NCBI GenBank assembly: GCA_023265625.1
Contig: JAHFST010000007.1
Span: forward strand, 1-64,000
DNA length: 64,000 nucleotides
From: Deltaproteobacteria bacterium
Lineage (GTDB): Bacteria > UBA10199 > JACPAL01 > JAHFST01
Reading direction: 5' to 3'
The notes beneath the pieces are model-generated. The model ran no database searches. It saw only the letters and a program-made list of their open reading frames with translations, and was not told the origin of the DNA. Below, in pieces: positions 3,379 to 58,468 of this stretch. Each line of letters begins with the position of its first letter. Position 1 is the stretch's first letter. The translations under genes and the position numbers were made by a program.

Positions 3379-4173
3379 ATGGCCTTTCAGATCCGTCCCG
3401 CCCATTACTCGGATGCCCCGGCACTCCTGGCCTTGGCCACCTCGACCAGCGCCCGCGGCTTTCTGACCTTGCCCAACACCGAAAAAGAACTGGAAGAATT
3501 ATTGGACGACACCGAAGGCCACTACCTCTTTGTGCTCGAGGATGAAAAAAAGGTCATTGGCTCCTCGTTGATTGTCGCGCGCCACGGCACGGCCCAATCG
3601 CCCCACCTCTATCTCCAATTGGATCGTACCGGACAAAGACTCAAATTACGTTCGGAAACCCGCGGCAGAACAGAACTGGGAGGATTGATTTTGGACCGGT
3701 CCTATCGCGGCCACCCGGAAAAATTGGGTAAGAGACTTTCTTACGTGCGGCTATTTTTTATTGGCAAGAACCCTCAGTTGTTTTGTCCGGACATCCTGGC
3801 GGAATTGCTCCCGCCCTTCACACCCGACGGAAAATCGTTGTTTTGGGAGGCCCTGGGGAAAAAAATTACCGGACTGGACTACCAAGAAGCGGATGAAATG
3901 TCGCGCCGGGATAAAAGTTTTATTCGACAATTTTTTCCTCAAGGAGAAATCAATATCACCTCCCTCCCCGCCGAAGCGCAATCCGTGATTGGCATCCCGG
4001 GACCTGAGACCATGGCCGTCACGAAGATACTGGAGGCCGTGGGATTTCAGTACCTAAGACAAATCGACCCCTTTGATGGCGGCCCCCACTATGGTGCAAA
4101 ACAAAGTGACATTCGCTATGATCTGGTAGAAAAATTTCTGCTAAGGGACACTGAAGTTACCCTGAATCTGTAG
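3379..4173 (+). CDS. astA: Arginine N-succinyltransferase-like protein (AstA family)
   Basis: The 264-residue protein resembles AstA, which transfers succinyl from succinyl-CoA to the alpha-amino group of arginine in the arginine succinyltransferase pathway. Family-like stretches include IRPAHYSDAPALLAL at the N terminus, ELGGLILDRSYRG, and a GPETMAVTKILEAVGF segment before FDGGPHYGA. It is shorter than typical AstA proteins (about 340 residues). The start follows ATAAGGG, nine bases after the M20 gene. Its TAG stop (4171-4173) belongs to a palindromic repeat. The transferred acyl group is inferred from family. Confidence 0.8.
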   Translation: MAFQIRPAHYSDAPALLALATSTSARGFLTLPNTEKELEELLDDTEGHYLFVLEDEKKVIGSSLIVARHGTAQSPHLYLQLDRTGQRLKLRSETRGRTELGGLILDRSYRGHPEKLGKRLSYVRLFFIGKNPQLFCPDILAELLPPFTPDGKSLFWEALGKKITGLDYQEADEMSRRDKSFIRQFFPQGEINITSLPAEAQSVIGIPGPETMAVTKILEAVGFQYLRQIDPFDGGPHYGAKQSDIRYDLVEKFLLRDTEVTLNL

Positions 4174-4198
4174 GGGCGTATTGCAATACGCCCCTACA
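4169..4198. repeat. REP-like palindrome, copy 2 (astA stop)
   Basis: A perfect 30-base palindrome with arms TGTAGGGGCG and CGCCCCTACA and centre TATTGCAATA. The TAG of its left foot is the astA stop codon. The right arm ends ten bases before the DDAH-like start codon. As RNA it would form a strong intercistronic hairpin. Confidence 0.92.
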
Positions 4199-9143: not shown

Positions 9144-10232
9144 ATGGCAAAAAATAAAAACGAGTTTTCCTTGACCTTGACCGATCCGGTCAAAAAACGC
9201 GAAAAACTGGAAACTCTCTCCCGGCAAGTCACGCCCGTTGATTTGGAAAAAACTCAAACGATTGCCGACCTGGTAGATTCCTTCAAAGGCATGTCCATTC
9301 AAGCGCGGCGCATCGGACAATGTGCCGATGTCTTCGAAAGCATGTTAACGGATCCGGATCGCCCCACCATCCTCCTGGGCATCGCGGGACCGTTGGTAGC
9401 CGCCGGTCTCCGAAAAACCATTCGAGATATGGTCGCGCTCAATATGGTGGATGTGATTGTCTCCACCGGGGCGATTTTATATCAAGATATTTACCAAGGC
9501 CGCGGGTTTCGCCACTTTCATGGTTCGCCCATGGCGGATGATAACAAGTTGCGGGATCTTTACATCGATCGAATCTACGACACGTATGTTGATGAGGAAA
9601 AATTTTGGGAGACCGATTGCTGGATTGGGAAATTTGCCGATACCCTCCCTGCCGGCATTTACTCCAGCCGAGCCTTCATGGACAAATTAGCGCTGCAGAT
9701 CAAAGATGAAAATTCCATTGTCGCGACCGCTGTCAAAAAAGGGGTCCCGATGTTTGTCCCCGCCATCAACGACTCCAGTATCGGGATTGGTCTCACCGAA
9801 CATTACCATCGCGCCACCCGTGAAAAACGGGAAAAAATGGCGATCAACTCCATTCGTGATAATTACGAATTGACCCAGATTGTCGTGAAGTCCAAAAAGA
9901 CCGCCGCCATTTACATCGCAGGGGGCGTGCCCAAAAATTATATCAACGACTCCGTCGTCATGGCCTACATCTTTGGTCAGGAGACCGGGGGTCATACCTA
10001 CGCCTTTCAGCTCACAACCGATGTCCCGCACTGGGGAGGGTTGTCAGGATCCACATTAGACGAAGCCACCTCGTGGGGAAAGATCAACAAAAAGGCCTCA
10101 AAGGCCATGGCCTTCGTCGAACCTTCCGTCTCGCTTCCCTTGTTGGTTGGGTCCATGATGCAAAAGGGGCTCTACAAAAATCGTAAGCCGCTCAATATTT
10201 CCTGGGATAATGATATTTTGACATCGTTGTAG
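9144..10232 (+). CDS. Deoxyhypusine synthase-like enzyme (probable homospermidine synthase type)
   Basis: The 362-residue protein belongs to the deoxyhypusine synthase family, which moves an aminobutyl group from spermidine using NAD. The active-site lysine region is retained in DEATSWGKINKKA, matching the eukaryotic VSWGKI segment. Other family stretches include AGPLVAAGLRKTI and IVSTGAILYQDIYQ. Bacteria lack eIF5A, so bacterial members are usually thought to make polyamines such as homospermidine. That role is inferred. The stop TAG (10230-10232) is part of a palindromic repeat. No polyamine genes are adjacent. Confidence 0.82.
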   Translation: MAKNKNEFSLTLTDPVKKREKLETLSRQVTPVDLEKTQTIADLVDSFKGMSIQARRIGQCADVFESMLTDPDRPTILLGIAGPLVAAGLRKTIRDMVALNMVDVIVSTGAILYQDIYQGRGFRHFHGSPMADDNKLRDLYIDRIYDTYVDEEKFWETDCWIGKFADTLPAGIYSSRAFMDKLALQIKDENSIVATAVKKGVPMFVPAINDSSIGIGLTEHYHRATREKREKMAINSIRDNYELTQIVVKSKKTAAIYIAGGVPKNYINDSVVMAYIFGQETGGHTYAFQLTTDVPHWGGLSGSTLDEATSWGKINKKASKAMAFVEPSVSLPLLVGSMMQKGLYKNRKPLNISWDNDILTSL

Positions 10233-10257
10233 GGGCGGATTGCAATACGCCCCTACA
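10228..10257. repeat. REP-like palindrome, copy 3 (stop of DHS-like gene)
   Basis: Arms TGTAGGGGCG and CGCCCCTACA surround GATTGCAATA, with a single mismatch from a perfect palindrome. The left foot supplies the stop codon of the DHS-like gene. Confidence 0.9.
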
Positions 10258-27405: not shown

Positions 27406-27435
27406 TGTAAGGGCGTATTGCAATACGCCCCTACA
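27406..27435. repeat. REP-like palindrome, copy 4 (between PilZ and transglycosylase genes)
   Basis: Arms TGTAAGGGCG and CGCCCCTACA with centre TATTGCAATA. One mismatch (GTAA) lies in the left foot. It separates two convergent genes. The right foot, read on the minus strand, supplies the TAG stop of the transglycosylase gene (27431-27433), so it may act as a bidirectional terminator. Confidence 0.9.
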
Positions 27436-34048: not shown

Positions 34049-34418
34049 TTCTAAGTCCCTTGTTTGTTGGATTGGCGAAAACTATTTTTCCGCGGCCACG
34101 ATAAGGATGGATGTTTTTTTAGTCAAGCGATTATTTTTTCTCTTTTCTTTCTGCGCCTTCAGCGTGTTTTTTTAAAAAGTCCGTATTTTTTTAAGTTTCC
34201 TCTGGACAAAAAAAAACGGTTTGTTACCCTCCACACCGTTCCAACAAAATGATTTTTAATTTTTCATAAATTTTTTGTGACATTTTTGGGAGAAAAAAAT
34301 TTTAAGGCTTCCTGATCTTCTCCTCTTCGAGAAGGGATGCATCAAACAAGGGCGTAACTAAATAAACCGTTGTTTATACCATTTATCCACACCTGTGGAT
34401 AACCCTGTGGGTTATTTT
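34049..34418 (+). other. AT-rich rpmH-dnaA intergenic region with DnaA boxes (oriC part)
   Basis: The region is rich in A and T runs, a plausible unwinding element. It ends in two facing DnaA boxes, TTATCCACA at 34383-34391 and TGTGGATAA at 34394-34402, next to the dnaA start. Promoters for both divergent operons should lie here but I cannot pick single sites with confidence. Confidence 0.65.
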
Positions 34419-35789
34419 ATGGATGAGTTTGTCTTGCCAAGCCAACTAGAAAGAATTCGTATAGAATTCAATGATTTGCTGGATTCACCGGCTTGGTCTG
34501 GTCAGGTTTTTTTTCCATCGATTACCGATAATTGTCTGACCGTTCAGGTAATCAATCGCTTTGTTCGTGATTGGATCAAGGAAAATTATTGGGAACAGAT
34601 CCTATCGGTATGCAAGCGAGAATTTGGCAGTAACGGTGAAGCGCGGATGGTGGTCGTTGAATTACCACCTGTGGCCGCGGAGGTAGGGGTTCAAAATTTT
34701 GAACCCCTACAAAAAAAACCGGAACCTGTTCTTCCGCCACTTCCTCTTGAGGCCCCCAAGGTCGTCTTTTCTTCCTTAAACAAAAAATATACCTTCCAAT
34801 CTTATGTCGTGGGCACATCCAATCAATTTGCCCATGCGGCCTCTGCCGCCTGTGCCCAACAGCCGGGTCAGGTCTACAACCCTTTGCTAATCTACGGGGG
34901 TGTGGGTCTTGGTAAAACCCATTTGCTTCACGCGATTGGCAATGAAATATTGCAACACAATCCCAGTGCCCGTGTTTTGTACATCAGTTCAGAACGTTTC
35001 ATGAATGAACTCATCCAGGCGATTCGTTCCGGTAAAACGAGCGAGTTTCGTAACAAATACCGCGACTCATGTGATGTCCTGCTGATGGATGATGTCCAAT
35101 TTATCGCCGGCAAAGATCGGACTCAAGACGAGTTCTTTCATACTTTCAATACTTTGTATGAGAGCCACAAACAAATCGTCCTAACCAGTGACAAGCCCCC
35201 CAAGGACATCCCGGATCTCGAAGACCGGCTGCGTTCCCGTCTGGAGTGGGGCCTGATTGCTGACATCCAGCCTCCTGATTTGGAAACTCGCATCGCCATC
35301 CTGAAGAAGAAGGCCTGCGCCAATCACATCGAACTCACGGATGACGTCGCCCTCTTTTTGGGAAGCCATATCAAATCGAATGTCCGAGAACTCGAAGGGG
35401 CCTTGATTCGCGTCAATGCCTTTGCCTCGTTGGGGGGAAAGGCGATCACGGTTGATTTTACCAAAGAGTCTTTGAAAAATGTCCTGGGGGTTGTGGGGAA
35501 AATTCTCTCCATGGACCAGATTCAAAAAATTGTTTCCGACTTTTACGGCATCACCTTAAATGAACTCACCGGCAAGTGCCGGGTCAAAAGCCAGTCTTAC
35601 CCAAGACAGATTGCCATGTATCTCTGCCGCAAATTCGTCAAGGCCTCCTATCCCGAGATCGGCCACAAGTTTGGTGGGAAAGACCACTCCACCGTGGTCC
35701 ACGCGGTGACCAAGATTACCGATCTGATCGATGTGAATGCCCAGTTGCGTGATGAGATGGTCTCGTTGGAACGTCAGTTAAATCATTAA
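34419..35789 (+). CDS. dnaA: Chromosomal replication initiator DnaA
   Basis: DnaA binds oriC boxes and melts the origin. ATG 34419 gives 456 residues. A GTG at 34395 is in frame but lies inside a DnaA box. Domain I is residues 1-80. Domain II is the Pro/Glu linker and contains a palindromic repeat read in frame (VGVQNFEPL, from 34683). The AAA+ domain III has Walker A GGVGLGKTH and Walker B LLMDDVQFI. Domain IV has the box-recognition helix KDHSTVVHAV. DnaA boxes at its start suggest autoregulation. Confidence 0.97.
   Translation: MDEFVLPSQLERIRIEFNDLLDSPAWSGQVFFPSITDNCLTVQVINRFVRDWIKENYWEQILSVCKREFGSNGEARMVVVELPPVAAEVGVQNFEPLQKKPEPVLPPLPLEAPKVVFSSLNKKYTFQSYVVGTSNQFAHAASAACAQQPGQVYNPLLIYGGVGLGKTHLLHAIGNEILQHNPSARVLYISSERFMNELIQAIRSGKTSEFRNKYRDSCDVLLMDDVQFIAGKDRTQDEFFHTFNTLYESHKQIVLTSDKPPKDIPDLEDRLRSRLEWGLIADIQPPDLETRIAILKKKACANHIELTDDVALFLGSHIKSNVRELEGALIRVNAFASLGGKAITVDFTKESLKNVLGVVGKILSMDQIQKIVSDFYGITLNELTGKCRVKSQSYPRQIAMYLCRKFVKASYPEIGHKFGGKDHSTVVHAVTKITDLIDVNAQLRDEMVSLERQLNH
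34683..34710. repeat. REP-like palindrome, copy 5 (inside dnaA)
   Basis: A perfect 28-base palindrome with feet GTAGGGG and CCCCTAC and inner arms TTCAAAA/TTTTGAA. It is translated as VGVQNFEPL in the variable linker of DnaA. The same variant recurs at 35811 and 49982. Confidence 0.93.
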
Positions 35790-35810: not shown

Positions 35811-35838
35811 GTAAGGGTTCAAAATTTTGAACCCCTAC
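35811..35838. repeat. REP-like palindrome, copy 6 (after dnaA)
   Basis: Feet GTAAGGG and CCCCTAC with the TTCAAAATTTTGAA centre, with one foot mismatch. It sits 22 bases after the dnaA stop, at the edge of the second DnaA-box cluster. Confidence 0.92.
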
Positions 35839-35839
35839 G

Positions 35840-36060
35840 CCTCGAACGTTTGTGACATCCATGTGGATAAATAACCCACAACTGACATCTCCCACTTATC
35901 CCCAGGTTATGGATTTTTTATACCCCCACTTTTCCCAAAAGAAACCGGTTGCAATTCCCTTTGTAATTGAAAAGAATATCTGCTTTATCCCAAGGATTGG
36001 CGTGACACTAGATCTACTACTGTATACTACTATTATATAATAAAAGAAGAAGAGGACCAA
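35840..36060 (+). other. dnaA-dnaN intergenic region with DnaA-box-like sites
   Basis: TGTGGATAA at 35862-35870 is a perfect DnaA box, TTATCCCCA at 35896-35904 is a one-mismatch box, and CTTTATCCCA near 35982 is a weaker copy. An AT-rich stretch around 36024-36050 follows. With the boxes upstream of dnaA this suggests an origin split around dnaA, as in some other bacteria. A dnaN promoter probably lies in the same AT-rich stretch. Confidence 0.55.
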
Positions 36061-37236: not shown

Positions 37237-40968
<3,732 letters not shown>

Positions 40969-45846: not shown

Positions 45847-45866
45847 ATACAGCAACAGTACCAACT

Positions 45867-45933
45867 TTAAAATCTATTATCAACAACAGAGTTGCCAGAT
45901 TTAGACTGTTCGCCCCAATGCCGGGGCGAGGGG
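45867..45933. repeat. Direct repeat, left copy (aroF-end duplicate)
   Basis: TTAAAATCTATTATCAACAA begins a roughly 65-base segment repeated at 48299-48363 with scattered changes. The part around 45908-45933, read on the minus strand, would encode LAPALGRTV and a stop, mirroring the aroF C terminus LAPVLGRTV. It therefore duplicates the end of aroF. Confidence 0.8.
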
Positions 45934-45953
45934 CTCTTCGGGTTTGGGGGAGA

Positions 45954-48286: not shown

Positions 48287-48298
48287 TCGCTGATCACG

Positions 48299-48363
48299 TT
48301 AAAATCTATTATCAACAACAGAATTGCTTAATTTAAACGGTCCGCCCCAACACCGGGGCGAGG
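48299..48363. repeat. Direct repeat, right copy (true aroF end)
   Basis: The right copy begins with the same TTAAAATCTATTATCAACAA and includes the real last codons of aroF. With the left copy at 45867 it brackets the AbiEii-like pair and the broken TraB-like gene. Confidence 0.8.
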
Positions 48364-49352
48364 GCCTTGAGTTTGGCCATTAATTCGGCAAAGCGTTTGA
48401 AGGTGAGCGACTGGCCGCCGTCGGAGAGGGCCTCTTCGGGCTTGGGGTGGACTTCGATCATGACGCCATCGGCGCCGGCGGCGATGGAGGCCAGGGCCAT
48501 GGGGATGACGTAGATCCAATTGCCGGTACCGTGCGAGGGATCACAGATCACGGGGAGATGGGTCTGGTCTTTTAAGACTGGGACGGCATTTAAATCGAGG
48601 GTGTTGCGGGTCGAGGTCTCGAAGGTGCGGATCCCGCGCTCGCAGAGGATGACATTCGGGTTGCCCCCGGCCAAGATGTATTCGGCGGAGAGCAGCCATT
48701 CCTTAATCGTTGACGAAAGGCCGCGCTTCAAGAATACCGGTTTGCTGCATTTGCCCAGTTCTTTGAGCAGGGCGAAATTTTGCACATTGCGGGCCCCGAC
48801 TTGGAGCACATCGGAATATTTTTCAACCAGGGCGACATCTTCAGGATTCACAATTTCGGTAATGATCGGCAGCCCGGATTCTTTGCGGGCCTTGGCCAGA
48901 TACTTGAGCCCAGTCTCTTCAAGACCTTGGAAATCATAGGGCGAGGTCCTGGGTTTGAAGGCCCCGCCGCGCAGCATATGGGCCCCGGCCTGCTTGACGG
49001 CCAGGGCGGTCTCAATAATCTGTTTTTCGCTCTCTACGGAACAAGGTCCCGCCATCACACAGAGGGACTTGCCCCCAATTTCTACGCCGCCTTCCACCTT
49101 GACCACGCTGGCCCCTTTTTTGGTCTCTTTGCTGGCGAGTTTGTAGGGTTTGGAGATGGGAACCAAGGACTCAACCCCATCGAGGCTCTGGAGGTCGTAG
49201 AGGTCCTTTTTCTTCTTTTCATGCCCGATACAGGCGATCACGGTGCGTTCTTCCCCCACAATCACATGGGGACGAAACCCAAGCCGCTCAATCTCGTCAC
49301 AGACAGTCTTGACCTGCGGTTCCGGCGTACCGATTTTAAGGATCACGATCAT
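48333..49352 (-). CDS. aroF: 3-deoxy-7-phosphoheptulonate synthase (DAHP synthase, AroF type)
   Basis: This enzyme condenses phosphoenolpyruvate with erythrose 4-phosphate at the entry of the shikimate pathway. The 339-residue protein is the class I-beta type with an N-terminal ferredoxin-like regulatory domain (1-70), as in Thermotoga, so feedback by aromatic amino acids is likely. Core motifs include [33 protein letters not shown] and [10 protein letters not shown]. The 3' end is partly duplicated about 2.4 kb away. Confidence 0.96.
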
Positions 49353-49981: not shown

Positions 49982-50010
49982 GTAGGGGTTCAAAATTTTG
50001 AACCCCTACA
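49982..50010. repeat. REP-like palindrome, copy 7 (before gapA)
   Basis: Feet GTAGGGG and CCCCTAC with the TTCAAAATTTTGAA centre, a perfect match to the copy in dnaA. It lies between the second DUF507 stop and the gapA RBS (CAGGAGA). Confidence 0.92.
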
Positions 50011-51046: not shown

Positions 51047-52219
51047 ATGGCGCTTCGTTATCTTGAACAAATTCCGGTGACTGGCAAAAGGGTGTTTCTC
51101 CGGGTTGATTTCAATCTACCGCTCGTGGTGGGAGATCGGATCACGATTGCGGACGAAACCCGACTGGTAGAGGCCCTGCCCACCATCCGATATCTTATCG
51201 GGCAAAAGGCAAAAGTGATTTTGGCATCTCATCTGGGTCGCCCCAAAGGACGTGATGCGAACCTCAGCCTAGAACCCATCGCCTTGCGATTGTCCGAGCT
51301 CCTGCAACAAGACGTTATTTTCCCGGAAGATTGTGTGGGCGATGCGGTGAAAAAATTAGCGCACAACCTCAAAGAAGGGGAAGTGCTGCTGTTGGAAAAC
51401 CTGCGTTTTCATAAAGAAGAGGAAGAGAACGATCCCCATTTTGCGAGTCAGTTGGCCGCTCTCGCCGAAATTTATGGCACCGATGCCTTCGGGACAGTAC
51501 ACCGGGCCCATGCCTCCACGGTAGGAATGGTGAGCCACTTTCAGGAGAGGGGTGCGGGATTTCTGATTCAGAAAGAGGTCGGTTTTTTAGAGAAGATTTT
51601 ACACAAACCGGAGCGGCCCTTTTATGCGCTGTTGGGCGGGGCGAAGGTCTCGGATAAATTGGGGATAATTGAACACCTCCTGCCCAAGGTCGATGGACTG
51701 TTGTTGGGCGGGGCGCTGGCTTATACCTTTTTGCAGGCGCAAGGGATGGACGTGGGAAGTTCGCGGGTGGAAGCCTCCATGCTCAAAGTTGCGGCCCGAA
51801 TCCTGAAGAGTGGCCAAGATATCCGTATCTACCTCCCGCAAGATCATGTCGTCGCGGAGTCCCTGACAGCAGAGACTTCCACGGCGGTTGTGAGAACTTT
51901 CAAGCCAGGCCAGATCGGTCTGGATATTGGGCCAGAAACGACCAAGGCCTATCGGGACGTTTTACAAGGGGCCAAGACCATTTTTTGGAATGGGCCGATG
52001 GGCTTGTTTGAGCGTCCTGCCTTTGCCCAGGGAACGCGTGCGATGGCCCAGGCGATTGCCGAGAGTCAGGCGATCTCCGTGGTGGGAGGTGGCGAGAGTG
52101 TCACGGCCGTACGCCAAGCGGGTCTCGCCGAAAAAATTTCCCATCTCTCCACCGGTGGCGGGGCGACCTTGGAATACCTGGAGGGCAAGATCCTGCCGGG
52201 CCTAAAGGTGTTAATGTAG
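51047..52219 (+). CDS. pgk: Phosphoglycerate kinase
   Basis: PGK makes ATP from 1,3-bisphosphoglycerate. The 390-residue protein has the N-terminal RVDFNLPL, the LASHLGRPKG motif, FGTVHRAHAST, and the C-terminal nucleotide-site GGGESVTAV with HLSTGGGATLEYLEG. In the third position of the usual AFGTAHRAHAST motif a Val replaces Ala, a minor change. Its stop TAG (52217-52219) is part of a palindromic repeat. Confidence 0.97.
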   Translation: MALRYLEQIPVTGKRVFLRVDFNLPLVVGDRITIADETRLVEALPTIRYLIGQKAKVILASHLGRPKGRDANLSLEPIALRLSELLQQDVIFPEDCVGDAVKKLAHNLKEGEVLLLENLRFHKEEEENDPHFASQLAALAEIYGTDAFGTVHRAHASTVGMVSHFQERGAGFLIQKEVGFLEKILHKPERPFYALLGGAKVSDKLGIIEHLLPKVDGLLLGGALAYTFLQAQGMDVGSSRVEASMLKVAARILKSGQDIRIYLPQDHVVAESLTAETSTAVVRTFKPGQIGLDIGPETTKAYRDVLQGAKTIFWNGPMGLFERPAFAQGTRAMAQAIAESQAISVVGGGESVTAVRQAGLAEKISHLSTGGGATLEYLEGKILPGLKVLM

Positions 52220-52240
52220 GGGCGTATTGCCATACGCCCC
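52215..52240. repeat. REP-like palindrome, copy 8 (pgk stop, degenerate right end)
   Basis: TGTAGGGGCGTATTG pairs with CATACGCCCC, but the final CTACA foot is missing and replaced by A residues. The hairpin ends eight bases before the tpiA ATG, where a Shine-Dalgarno site would normally lie. Confidence 0.88.
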
Positions 52241-53550: not shown

Positions 53551-54723
53551 TTGAAACAACTTCCCAACAATTTCGAATCCGCCCTCAAATCCTACCTCAA
53601 AAAGACCTTCTATCCAGGAACCCGCAAGGAGGATTTTTCGGTAAGAGACTTCACCGAGGGCGATTACCGCTTTTTTGCCAAGGGGGTGGGGCGGCTGACC
53701 GAGTATTTCACGAGTGATCGTGGGTCACTGCCCCGCAATTATTTTAATCAGAAGGATCTCCGGTCGGGTTATTTGTTTTATTTTTTGCCGGTCAATGCGT
53801 TGAAGGTGGCAGGGCTCTTGAATTATATCCCCGACCCTTTTTTTCAGCGACCGCTCAAGGTCCTCGACCTGGGGAGCGGTCCCGGGACTGGGATGTTGGG
53901 GGTGCATTGTAGGGGCGCACCCATGTGTGCGCCCTCCGAAAAGGGGCAGACACACGGGTCTGCCCCTACACACCATTACACCCTCGCCGACCAAAACCGC
54001 GATGTCCTGCAAGACGCCTTGGGGTTAAAGACGGCCTTAGGGATCCCCGGAGAACTTCGGATACGCGCGGGAGACCTGCTCAACAATTCCCTGGCCAAGG
54101 TGGTGCCCCCGGAACCGTATGATTTGATCCTGCTCATCAATTTTCTCAACGAATTTTCCAGCGAGCGCCGGGCGAGTTTGCTGGATATTTTATTGCGCCG
54201 TTACCTGGCCCCCGGCGGCAGGATCTTGATTGCCGAGCCGGCGTTGCAGCGGATCACGCGGGAGTTGATGGAGTTGCGCGATGAGTTGCTCCAAACCGAA
54301 CGGGGCCACGTCTACGCCCCCTGCCTTCATCAAGAGGCCTGCCCGATGTTGGCGCATAATCAGCGAGATTGGTGCCATATCTACCTGGATTGGGAGCGCC
54401 CCCGTTGGATAGAGAAATTGGATCGCATGCTCCATTTGCGCAAAGAGTATCTGAAAAGCTCTTTTCTAATCTTAGGGAATGAACCCGCACCGACGTACAC
54501 CGCGGAAACCTGGCGGGTTGTGTCAGGCCACATCAATTCCAAGGGAAAGTCGGAGATGTTGCTCTGTGGGCCGGGAGGATTGCCGCAACTCAAAAGAGTC
54601 ACCCGCCTTGATCGTGATCAATCCCCCGCCAACCAAGATTTCGACCGCGCCCAGCGCGGGGATTTGGTGGAGACGGTAGTGGGGGATCGCTTAACCAAGG
54701 AAAAAAAGTTTCGGGTCAGGTAG
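53551..54723 (+). CDS. Rsm22-family methyltransferase-like protein with a repeat insertion
   Basis: This is an Rsm22-family protein, related to a mitochondrial small-subunit assembly factor with a methyltransferase fold. Residues about 100-120 hold motif I (KVLDLGSGPGTGMLG), and the C-terminal half has APCLHQEACPMLAHNQRDWCHI, the family cysteine cluster. A double palindromic repeat (53908-53970) is read in frame as about 21 residues immediately after motif I, before YTLADQNRDVL. The start is a TTG, with no better candidate and no clear RBS. It may still fold, because the insertion falls in a loop. Confidence 0.82.
   Translation: MKQLPNNFESALKSYLKKTFYPGTRKEDFSVRDFTEGDYRFFAKGVGRLTEYFTSDRGSLPRNYFNQKDLRSGYLFYFLPVNALKVAGLLNYIPDPFFQRPLKVLDLGSGPGTGMLGVHCRGAPMCAPSEKGQTHGSAPTHHYTLADQNRDVLQDALGLKTALGIPGELRIRAGDLLNNSLAKVVPPEPYDLILLINFLNEFSSERRASLLDILLRRYLAPGGRILIAEPALQRITRELMELRDELLQTERGHVYAPCLHQEACPMLAHNQRDWCHIYLDWERPRWIEKLDRMLHLRKEYLKSSFLILGNEPAPTYTAETWRVVSGHINSKGKSEMLLCGPGGLPQLKRVTRLDRDQSPANQDFDRAQRGDLVETVVGDRLTKEKKFRVR
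53908..53970. repeat. REP-like double palindrome, copy 9 (inside Rsm22 gene)
   Basis: Two hairpins share the outer feet TGTAGGGG and CCCCTACA. The first is GGGCGCA...TGCGCCC, the second GGGGCAGACACA...TCTGCCCC. The 63-base unit is a multiple of three and has no stop in the used frame. Confidence 0.92.
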
Positions 54724-57586: not shown

Positions 57587-58468
57587 TCACACCGACAACC
57601 GCAGCCGGTCGACCAACTTTCGCATATCTTTGGGAAGCTCCGAGACAAACTCAAGCGGTTCACCGGTCAGCGGGTGGTGGAATTTTAGGTAGCAGGCATG
57701 GAGGGCCTGACGGGGGAATGTAGGGGCGCAATTGATTGCGCCCTTTTTGCCGTAGATCTTGTCGCCGACCACCGGATGGCCGATGGAGCCTAGGTGGAGT
57801 CGGATCTGATGGGTTCGGCCGGTGTTGATCTTGACCTCGAGCAAGGTGGCATGGGGGTAGCGTTCCAGGACGCGAAACTCGGTGGAGGCAAAGCGGCCGG
57901 CCTCCGGGGTGGCGGTCTTGACCTTTTGCCCGCCCTTGAGCAGGGGACTTTTTTCGATAAACCCTTCGATCTTGCCCTGTTCGTCCGACACTTGCCCAGC
58001 GACGAGTACAAAATATTTACGCTTGATCGTGTGTCGTTTGAACTGGTCGGCTACTTTATTCCCTTCCTTGGTCTTGGAATAGACCATGATCCCGGAGGTG
58101 TCTCGATCCAGGCGATGGATCAGCCCCACGTAGTGATGCTTGATGTGACTGGCCGAGCGTTTGAGATATTCATTAATAATGGCGACCATGGTTGGCACGG
58201 TGGATATCGATGAGGTCTCGCAAGGGATGCCCGCCTCTTTTTCCACCACCAGGATATCTTTGTCCTCCAACAGCACTTTGAGGTAGTACCCATCCGCCTT
58301 GGGGGGCGTGACCTCTTTCAGGACCTCCACCTTGGCCTTGCGCTCTACTTCCCAGGAGGCAATGACCACCTTGCGCCCCTCGACCTTGATCTTACCTTGG
58401 TCGAGCAACCGTTTGGCCTGTTTGCGGGTCAGATTGAAGTGGTTCACTAAATAGATATCCAGGCGCAT
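57587..58468 (-). CDS. RluA-family pseudouridine synthase
   Basis: This enzyme isomerises uridine in rRNA or tRNA. The N-terminal S4 RNA-binding domain (about 1-70) is followed by the catalytic core with the Asp in LIHRLDRDTSGIMV and the later INTGRTHQIRLHL. The 293-residue length fits RluA/RluD-type enzymes. GHPVVGDKIYGKKGAINCAPTFPRQALHA contains residues from an in-frame palindromic repeat copy. The exact RNA target is unclear. Confidence 0.92.
   Translation of the reverse strand: MRLDIYLVNHFNLTRKQAKRLLDQGKIKVEGRKVVIASWEVERKAKVEVLKEVTPPKADGYYLKVLLEDKDILVVEKEAGIPCETSSISTVPTMVAIINEYLKRSASHIKHHYVGLIHRLDRDTSGIMVYSKTKEGNKVADQFKRHTIKRKYFVLVAGQVSDEQGKIEGFIEKSPLLKGGQKVKTATPEAGRFASTEFRVLERYPHATLLEVKINTGRTHQIRLHLGSIGHPVVGDKIYGKKGAINCAPTFPRQALHACYLKFHHPLTGEPLEFVSELPKDMRKLVDRLRLSV
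57719..57744. repeat. REP-like palindrome, copy 10 (inside RluA-type gene)
   Basis: TGTAGGGGCGCAATTGATTGCGCCCT is the left foot plus a full GGGCGCAAT/ATTGCGCCC hairpin, with the right foot decayed. On the minus strand it encodes part of GKKGAINCAPTF, in a loop between the core strands of the synthase. Confidence 0.88.

Follow-up and report, generated by a model that had tools for sequence, protein, structure and literature searches.

A perfect palindrome, probably a double-foot GTAG REP, read in frame within the DnaA linker of an uncultured deltaproteobacteria-like lineage

How does a perfect palindrome come to be read as protein within the replication initiator? The window analysed here, a stretch of 64 kb taken at its full length, contains on the plus strand a dnaA ORF of 464 aa (34395-35789) that matches PF00308, PF08299 and PF11638, with TIGR00362 (DnaA) above its cut-off. 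The first-pass annotation had reported a perfect 28-base copy of a repeat in domain II of this protein, and this was confirmed by the sequence, the ORF and the TIGR00362 match. The sequence GTAGGGGTTCAAAATTTTGAACCCCTAC at 34683-34710, hereafter F1, is a perfect 28-base palindrome whose codons, from GTA GGG to CCC CTA with one C left over at the end, read VGVQNFEPL (residues 97-105 of DnaA). The two other frames of the 28-mer hit TAG or TGA, and because just one frame of the three is stop-free, all in-frame F1 copies encode the same peptide. The hairpin formed by F1 as RNA has an energy of -18.9 kcal/mol.

The DnaA linker and the origin region

The peptide VGVQNFEPL is localised in a segment of DnaA, the domain II linker, that is predicted to be disordered, residues 91-124 having a pLDDT below 50 in the AlphaFold model. 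When DnaA sequences of relatives were aligned, as had been proposed at first pass, the peptide was absent from 31 of 31, and no case was seen of its residues being conserved in relatives lacking the repeat family. The closest DnaA proteins compared came from genomes of the same order and were 52-56% identical. Between fixed anchors the linker has 68 residues here and a median of 62 in the relatives (range 51-113), in agreement with the earlier description of domain II as variable and, probably, as tolerant. An insertion with partial loss of the target fits this linker length. With a linker so hypervariable in the relatives, and with no empty dnaA site observed in those of the same order, the insertion in dnaA itself is inferred from the presence of the same element in nine further proteins, of which eight were measured against relatives. 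Given the predicted disorder of this segment, VGVQNFEPL is probably tolerated in DnaA, and tolerance of the changed peptide by the linker is the most likely reason for the survival of F1 there. No palindrome in the dnaA gene was found in a literature search.

Two facing DnaA boxes (TTATCCACA, 34383-34402) lie upstream of the dnaA start and overlap it, and two more, one exact and one with one mismatch, are localised downstream of the gene (35862-35904) in a probable oriC arm. The second copy that had been noticed 1.1 kb downstream is present in the dnaA-dnaN intergenic region (35811-35838), with one base changed (GTAAGGG...) and 23 bases before a DnaA box. The DnaA boxes on both sides of the gene, together with a GC skew that flips sign near 36 kb, place this copy within the origin region. 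Further along the window, a GyrB ORF of 1239 aa (37249-40968) carries an intein-like insert after EGDSAGG, and two 72-base repeats, 85% identical and 2.4 kb apart, were observed at 45864-45935 and 48296-48367.

Copies of F1 in the genome and in other proteins

Over the whole genome (2.93 Mb in 37 contigs), F1 occurs 47 times exactly and 58 times if up to three mismatches are allowed, whereas a reversed control pattern gave no match. This copy number is far beyond chance, and the sequences flanking the 47 exact copies were unrelated to each other. A survey of GTAG hairpins (GTRGGGG and then a stem-loop) that covered 2.33 of the 2.93 Mb, and with them all 47 exact copies, found 183 sites distributed among many subfamilies. 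F1 and a sister element, F2, have GTAG at both ends, and single-end (one-foot) forms occur in some other subfamilies. In the window, one more exact F1 copy was found at 49982-50009. F2 (core CGTATTGCAATACG) is present at 2632-2659, where a 438-aa ORF reads it in frame as VGAYCNTPPQ, as an exact double-foot element at 4170-4197, as a double-foot element with a single core change at 10229-10256, with one altered foot at 27407-27434, and with a single foot at 52216-52240 (plus strand). Single-foot GTAG REPs lie at 53943-53969 (minus strand, GTAGGGGCAGACCCGTGTGTCTGCCCC), in frame in a 390-aa ORF, and at 57720-57744 (plus strand), in frame in a 293-aa RluD-like ORF of the minus strand. As part of the best explanation, which is set out below and is in our view probable, the F1 family was amplified recently and the palindrome at 34683 is one of its members.

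A search of 45 further genomes of the class and phylum did not find the exact 28-mer, and plasmids gave no match to it. Three IMG/VR contigs (37-55% GC), however, contain it in four stretches, so that F1 is not confined to this species and is also carried by phages or by their hosts. In one of these stretches (L377) a 99-aa lipoprotein-like ORF reads F1 in frame as VGVQNFEPL, and another (L375) has two further GTAG hairpins.

At least nine other conserved proteins of this genome bear the identical 28-mer in frame; they are encoded by AlaRS-, MiaB-, RimO-, GpmI-, acetyl-CoA synthetase (Acs)-, sulfite reductase (SiR)-, RsmD-, YyaL- and MltG-like ORFs; six of them were compared by sequence with solved structures, and the gene names beyond these six and DnaA were assigned by eye from sequence likeness. 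The same loci in relatives of the order were without F1. When all subfamilies were considered, 67 of the 183 GTAG hairpins were read in frame within ORFs that are 180 aa or longer; MutL alone has five of them, GpmI four and FolC three. About 34 elements were in genes with matched order relatives. The five GTAG REPs of the MutL-like ORF (C15:27857-28685) include four within about 50 residues of the central linker. In the C-terminal part of the Acs ORF (L152 6149-8176) there is an extra segment, IPLNPPFSKGEAQVFPPLKKGGEGGFKK, which is absent from PDB homologues and is probably another repeat family in frame. A minus-strand ORF of about 12,000 codons was observed around position 148199 of C37, a merged contig.

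Protein length, transposase genes and the mode of insertion

Usable anchors were available for 20 intragenic elements, and there the proteins had a median length change of +6.75 aa with respect to order-level relatives that were 50-70% identical (p = 1e-8 against random positions), whereas 124 random control positions gave a median of 0, with 91% unchanged. At the eight measurable F1 sites the net changes were +8, +7, +7, +3, +3, +2, -5 and -5.5 aa. The gain was usually smaller than the 9-10 aa that the element itself encodes, suggesting that target codons were lost on insertion; this is the simplest reading, loop changes unrelated to the element being possible at such a level of identity. A bare insertion of 28 bp shifts the frame, so that target bases must have been lost (or added) in the in-frame survivors. 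Target duplication, which had been proposed as a check in the flanking codons, was not found above chance at the element sites.

Two subclass-2.4-like RAYT genes were found in the genome, at C36:13792-14379 and C26:80967-81536. Subclass 2.4 TnpA_REP is defined by the motifs NH[IFV]H, WQ and YIxNNP and by REPs within the ORF; the C36 gene has NHIH, WQ and YIRDNP, the Y motif differing from YIxNNP by one residue and NCBIfam REP_Tyr_transpos scoring below its cut-off. Each of the two genes carries a different REP pair, of non-F1 subfamilies, inside its own reading frame. Among the Y1 genes of the genome, none bears F1 internally or has it as a flanking REP of its own; a single near-exact F1, with its last base changed, lies next to one of them (C36:14384) and overlaps the 3'-end of the L055 RAYT ORF. 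Eight longer Y1 genes were considered as a source of F1 and discarded, no GTAG REP pair being present in the flanks examined. A Y1 transposase gene at C25:152789-153784 has long terminal inverted repeats, the 3' one fused to half an F1. In relatives, GTAG hairpins were found near 12 of 17 RAYT loci compared with 3 of 97 other loci. The pattern GTAGGGGC...GCCC was abundant in 19 of 46 genomes of the class and near the control level in most others; full-gene RAYTs, counted with two hits to the REP part only left out, were present in 9 of the 19 rich genomes and in 3 of the 27 others (p = 0.008, phylogeny ignored).

How the element came to occupy its sites can be read in several ways. One of them refines the best explanation, set out below, without excluding it: F1 would have entered through a break or a single-stranded DNA gap while a variable stretch of the target was lost, so that codons are overwritten and no clean 28 bp is added, and in genes only net changes that are a multiple of three would survive. 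The net changes at the F1 sites would then imply losses of about 4, 7, 7, 19, 19, 22 and 43-45 bases. Such a replacement is consistent with the lack of target duplication and with the fact that the relatives agree to within one residue of each other at five F1 sites (SiR, AlaRS, GpmI, Acs and MiaB); many separate later deletions would be unlikely, because the perfect copies (47 of 58 are identical) seem too young for them. However, older loop changes could explain part of the shortfall, given the distance of the relatives, net changes of +9 aa or more were seen at 5 of the 20 elements, and the sample consists of in-frame genic survivors, so the general insertion reaction may be clean. We give replacement of the target slightly less than even weight. 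The more general proposal, that double-foot REPs enter genes by overwriting some 4-45 target bases and so turn a frame-breaking 28 bp into the exchange of a few codons with the frame kept, is put forward more tentatively still. If true, overwriting would let one peptide spread through housekeeping proteins including DnaA, and it would point to an insertion of the gap- or break-repair type, unlike the precise IS200/IS605 reaction.

It could also be that nothing was inserted and that F1 arose, through gene conversion between repeats or template switching, from an imperfect hairpin or REP already present in these genes, which would account for net changes unlike +9 or +10 and would agree with the high identity of the copies and with a chimeric half-F1 copy beside a Y1 gene (C25:153757). 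We consider this improbable, because a precursor is not visible, GTAG hairpins of any kind being as scarce at the non-RAYT loci of order relatives as given above, and because most of the measured sites are longer than in the relatives. An adaptive or regulatory role, in which the dnaA mRNA hairpin and the oriC copy tune initiation or the peptide alters a DnaA partner, could be supported by the strength of the hairpin, by the second copy adjoining DnaA boxes at the skew switch and by the report of Di Nocera et al. (2013, PMC3733652) that genes for replication and repair contain many intragenic REPs. The element, however, is scattered over unrelated genes and intergenic regions, and in DnaA it occupies a stretch of predicted disorder that varies in the relatives and lacks conservation across them, so that we regard such a role as very improbable; no evidence was found for the first-pass suggestion that the hairpin or the new peptide might affect expression or partners.

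The reading that we prefer, and hold with good confidence, is that F1 is a double-foot GTAG REP that landed in the DnaA linker and was retained by it. RAYT/TnpA_REP transposases of subclass 2.4 may mobilise F1 as a single-stranded hairpin, as their association with such elements suggests. A copy would have entered the disordered domain II linker, the insertion probably removing some target bases, and it would have been kept since the junction preserved the reading frame and the linker tolerates the altered peptide, the change presumably being close to neutral for DnaA. According to the literature, REP transposition has not been demonstrated to date and how REPs enter DNA is still unresolved. 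Comparison with relatives makes the insertion junctions in conserved proteins measurable, so that these junctions provide a record of REP entry into DNA, and here the measurements hint at a loss of target on insertion. The range of known intragenic REPs is extended by these observations to the replication initiator and also to a lineage that is uncultured and deltaproteobacteria-like, in which more than a third of the GTAG hairpins found are read in frame across long ORFs.

The closest known systems

The description that suits F1 best is that of a double-foot GTAG REP, which is the type associated with subclass 2.4 TnpA_REP (RAYT group 4). Its 5' GT[AG]G and 3' C[TC]AC ends close one hairpin, the bottom of the stem has the three consecutive G-C pairs of the canonical long type (GGGG...CCCC), and the host encodes subclass 2.4-like TnpA_REP with REPs in the ORF.

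Rickettsia palindromic elements (RPE), to which the first-pass annotation had compared the insert, are highly frequent repeats of 100-150 bp (PMC3767692), and RPE-4/6 are CGTC-tagged (PMC3733652). The comparison holds as an analogy, both being palindromic repeats retained in frame in conserved protein genes, but not as a family: sequence and lineage are unrelated, and membership was ruled out by the 28 bp and GTAG tag of F1 against 100-150 bp or CGTC, the double-foot GTAG REPs associated with RAYTs being closer. The earlier interpretation is supported in part, for the family copy in frame in domain II and for the probable tolerance of that segment.

The hairpins of this genome match the GTAG-tagged REP superfamily of Di Nocera et al. 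(2013), which includes intragenic members. These REPs share with F1 the GTAG tag, a size of 20-40 bp, tens of dispersed copies and in-frame genic copies, among them some in replication and repair genes; the main text of that study makes no mention of dnaA. Their definition places an unpaired GTAG at one end, whereas in F1 the GTAG pairs with CTAC.

Quentin et al. (2018, PMC6006769) assigned double-foot REPs, which F1 and F2 match, to subclass 2.4 TnpA_REP and reported in-frame REPs inside the transposase genes of this subclass. The GTAG/CTAC ends, the G-C-rich stem base, the in-frame REPs in tnpA_REP genes and the subclass 2.4-like RAYTs are common to that study and to this genome. In contrast, F1 is a perfect palindrome of 28 bp, no resident RAYT carries it internally, and many unrelated housekeeping genes have been invaded. 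The kind of element is already known; what is unusual is how many of them this genome has inside genes.
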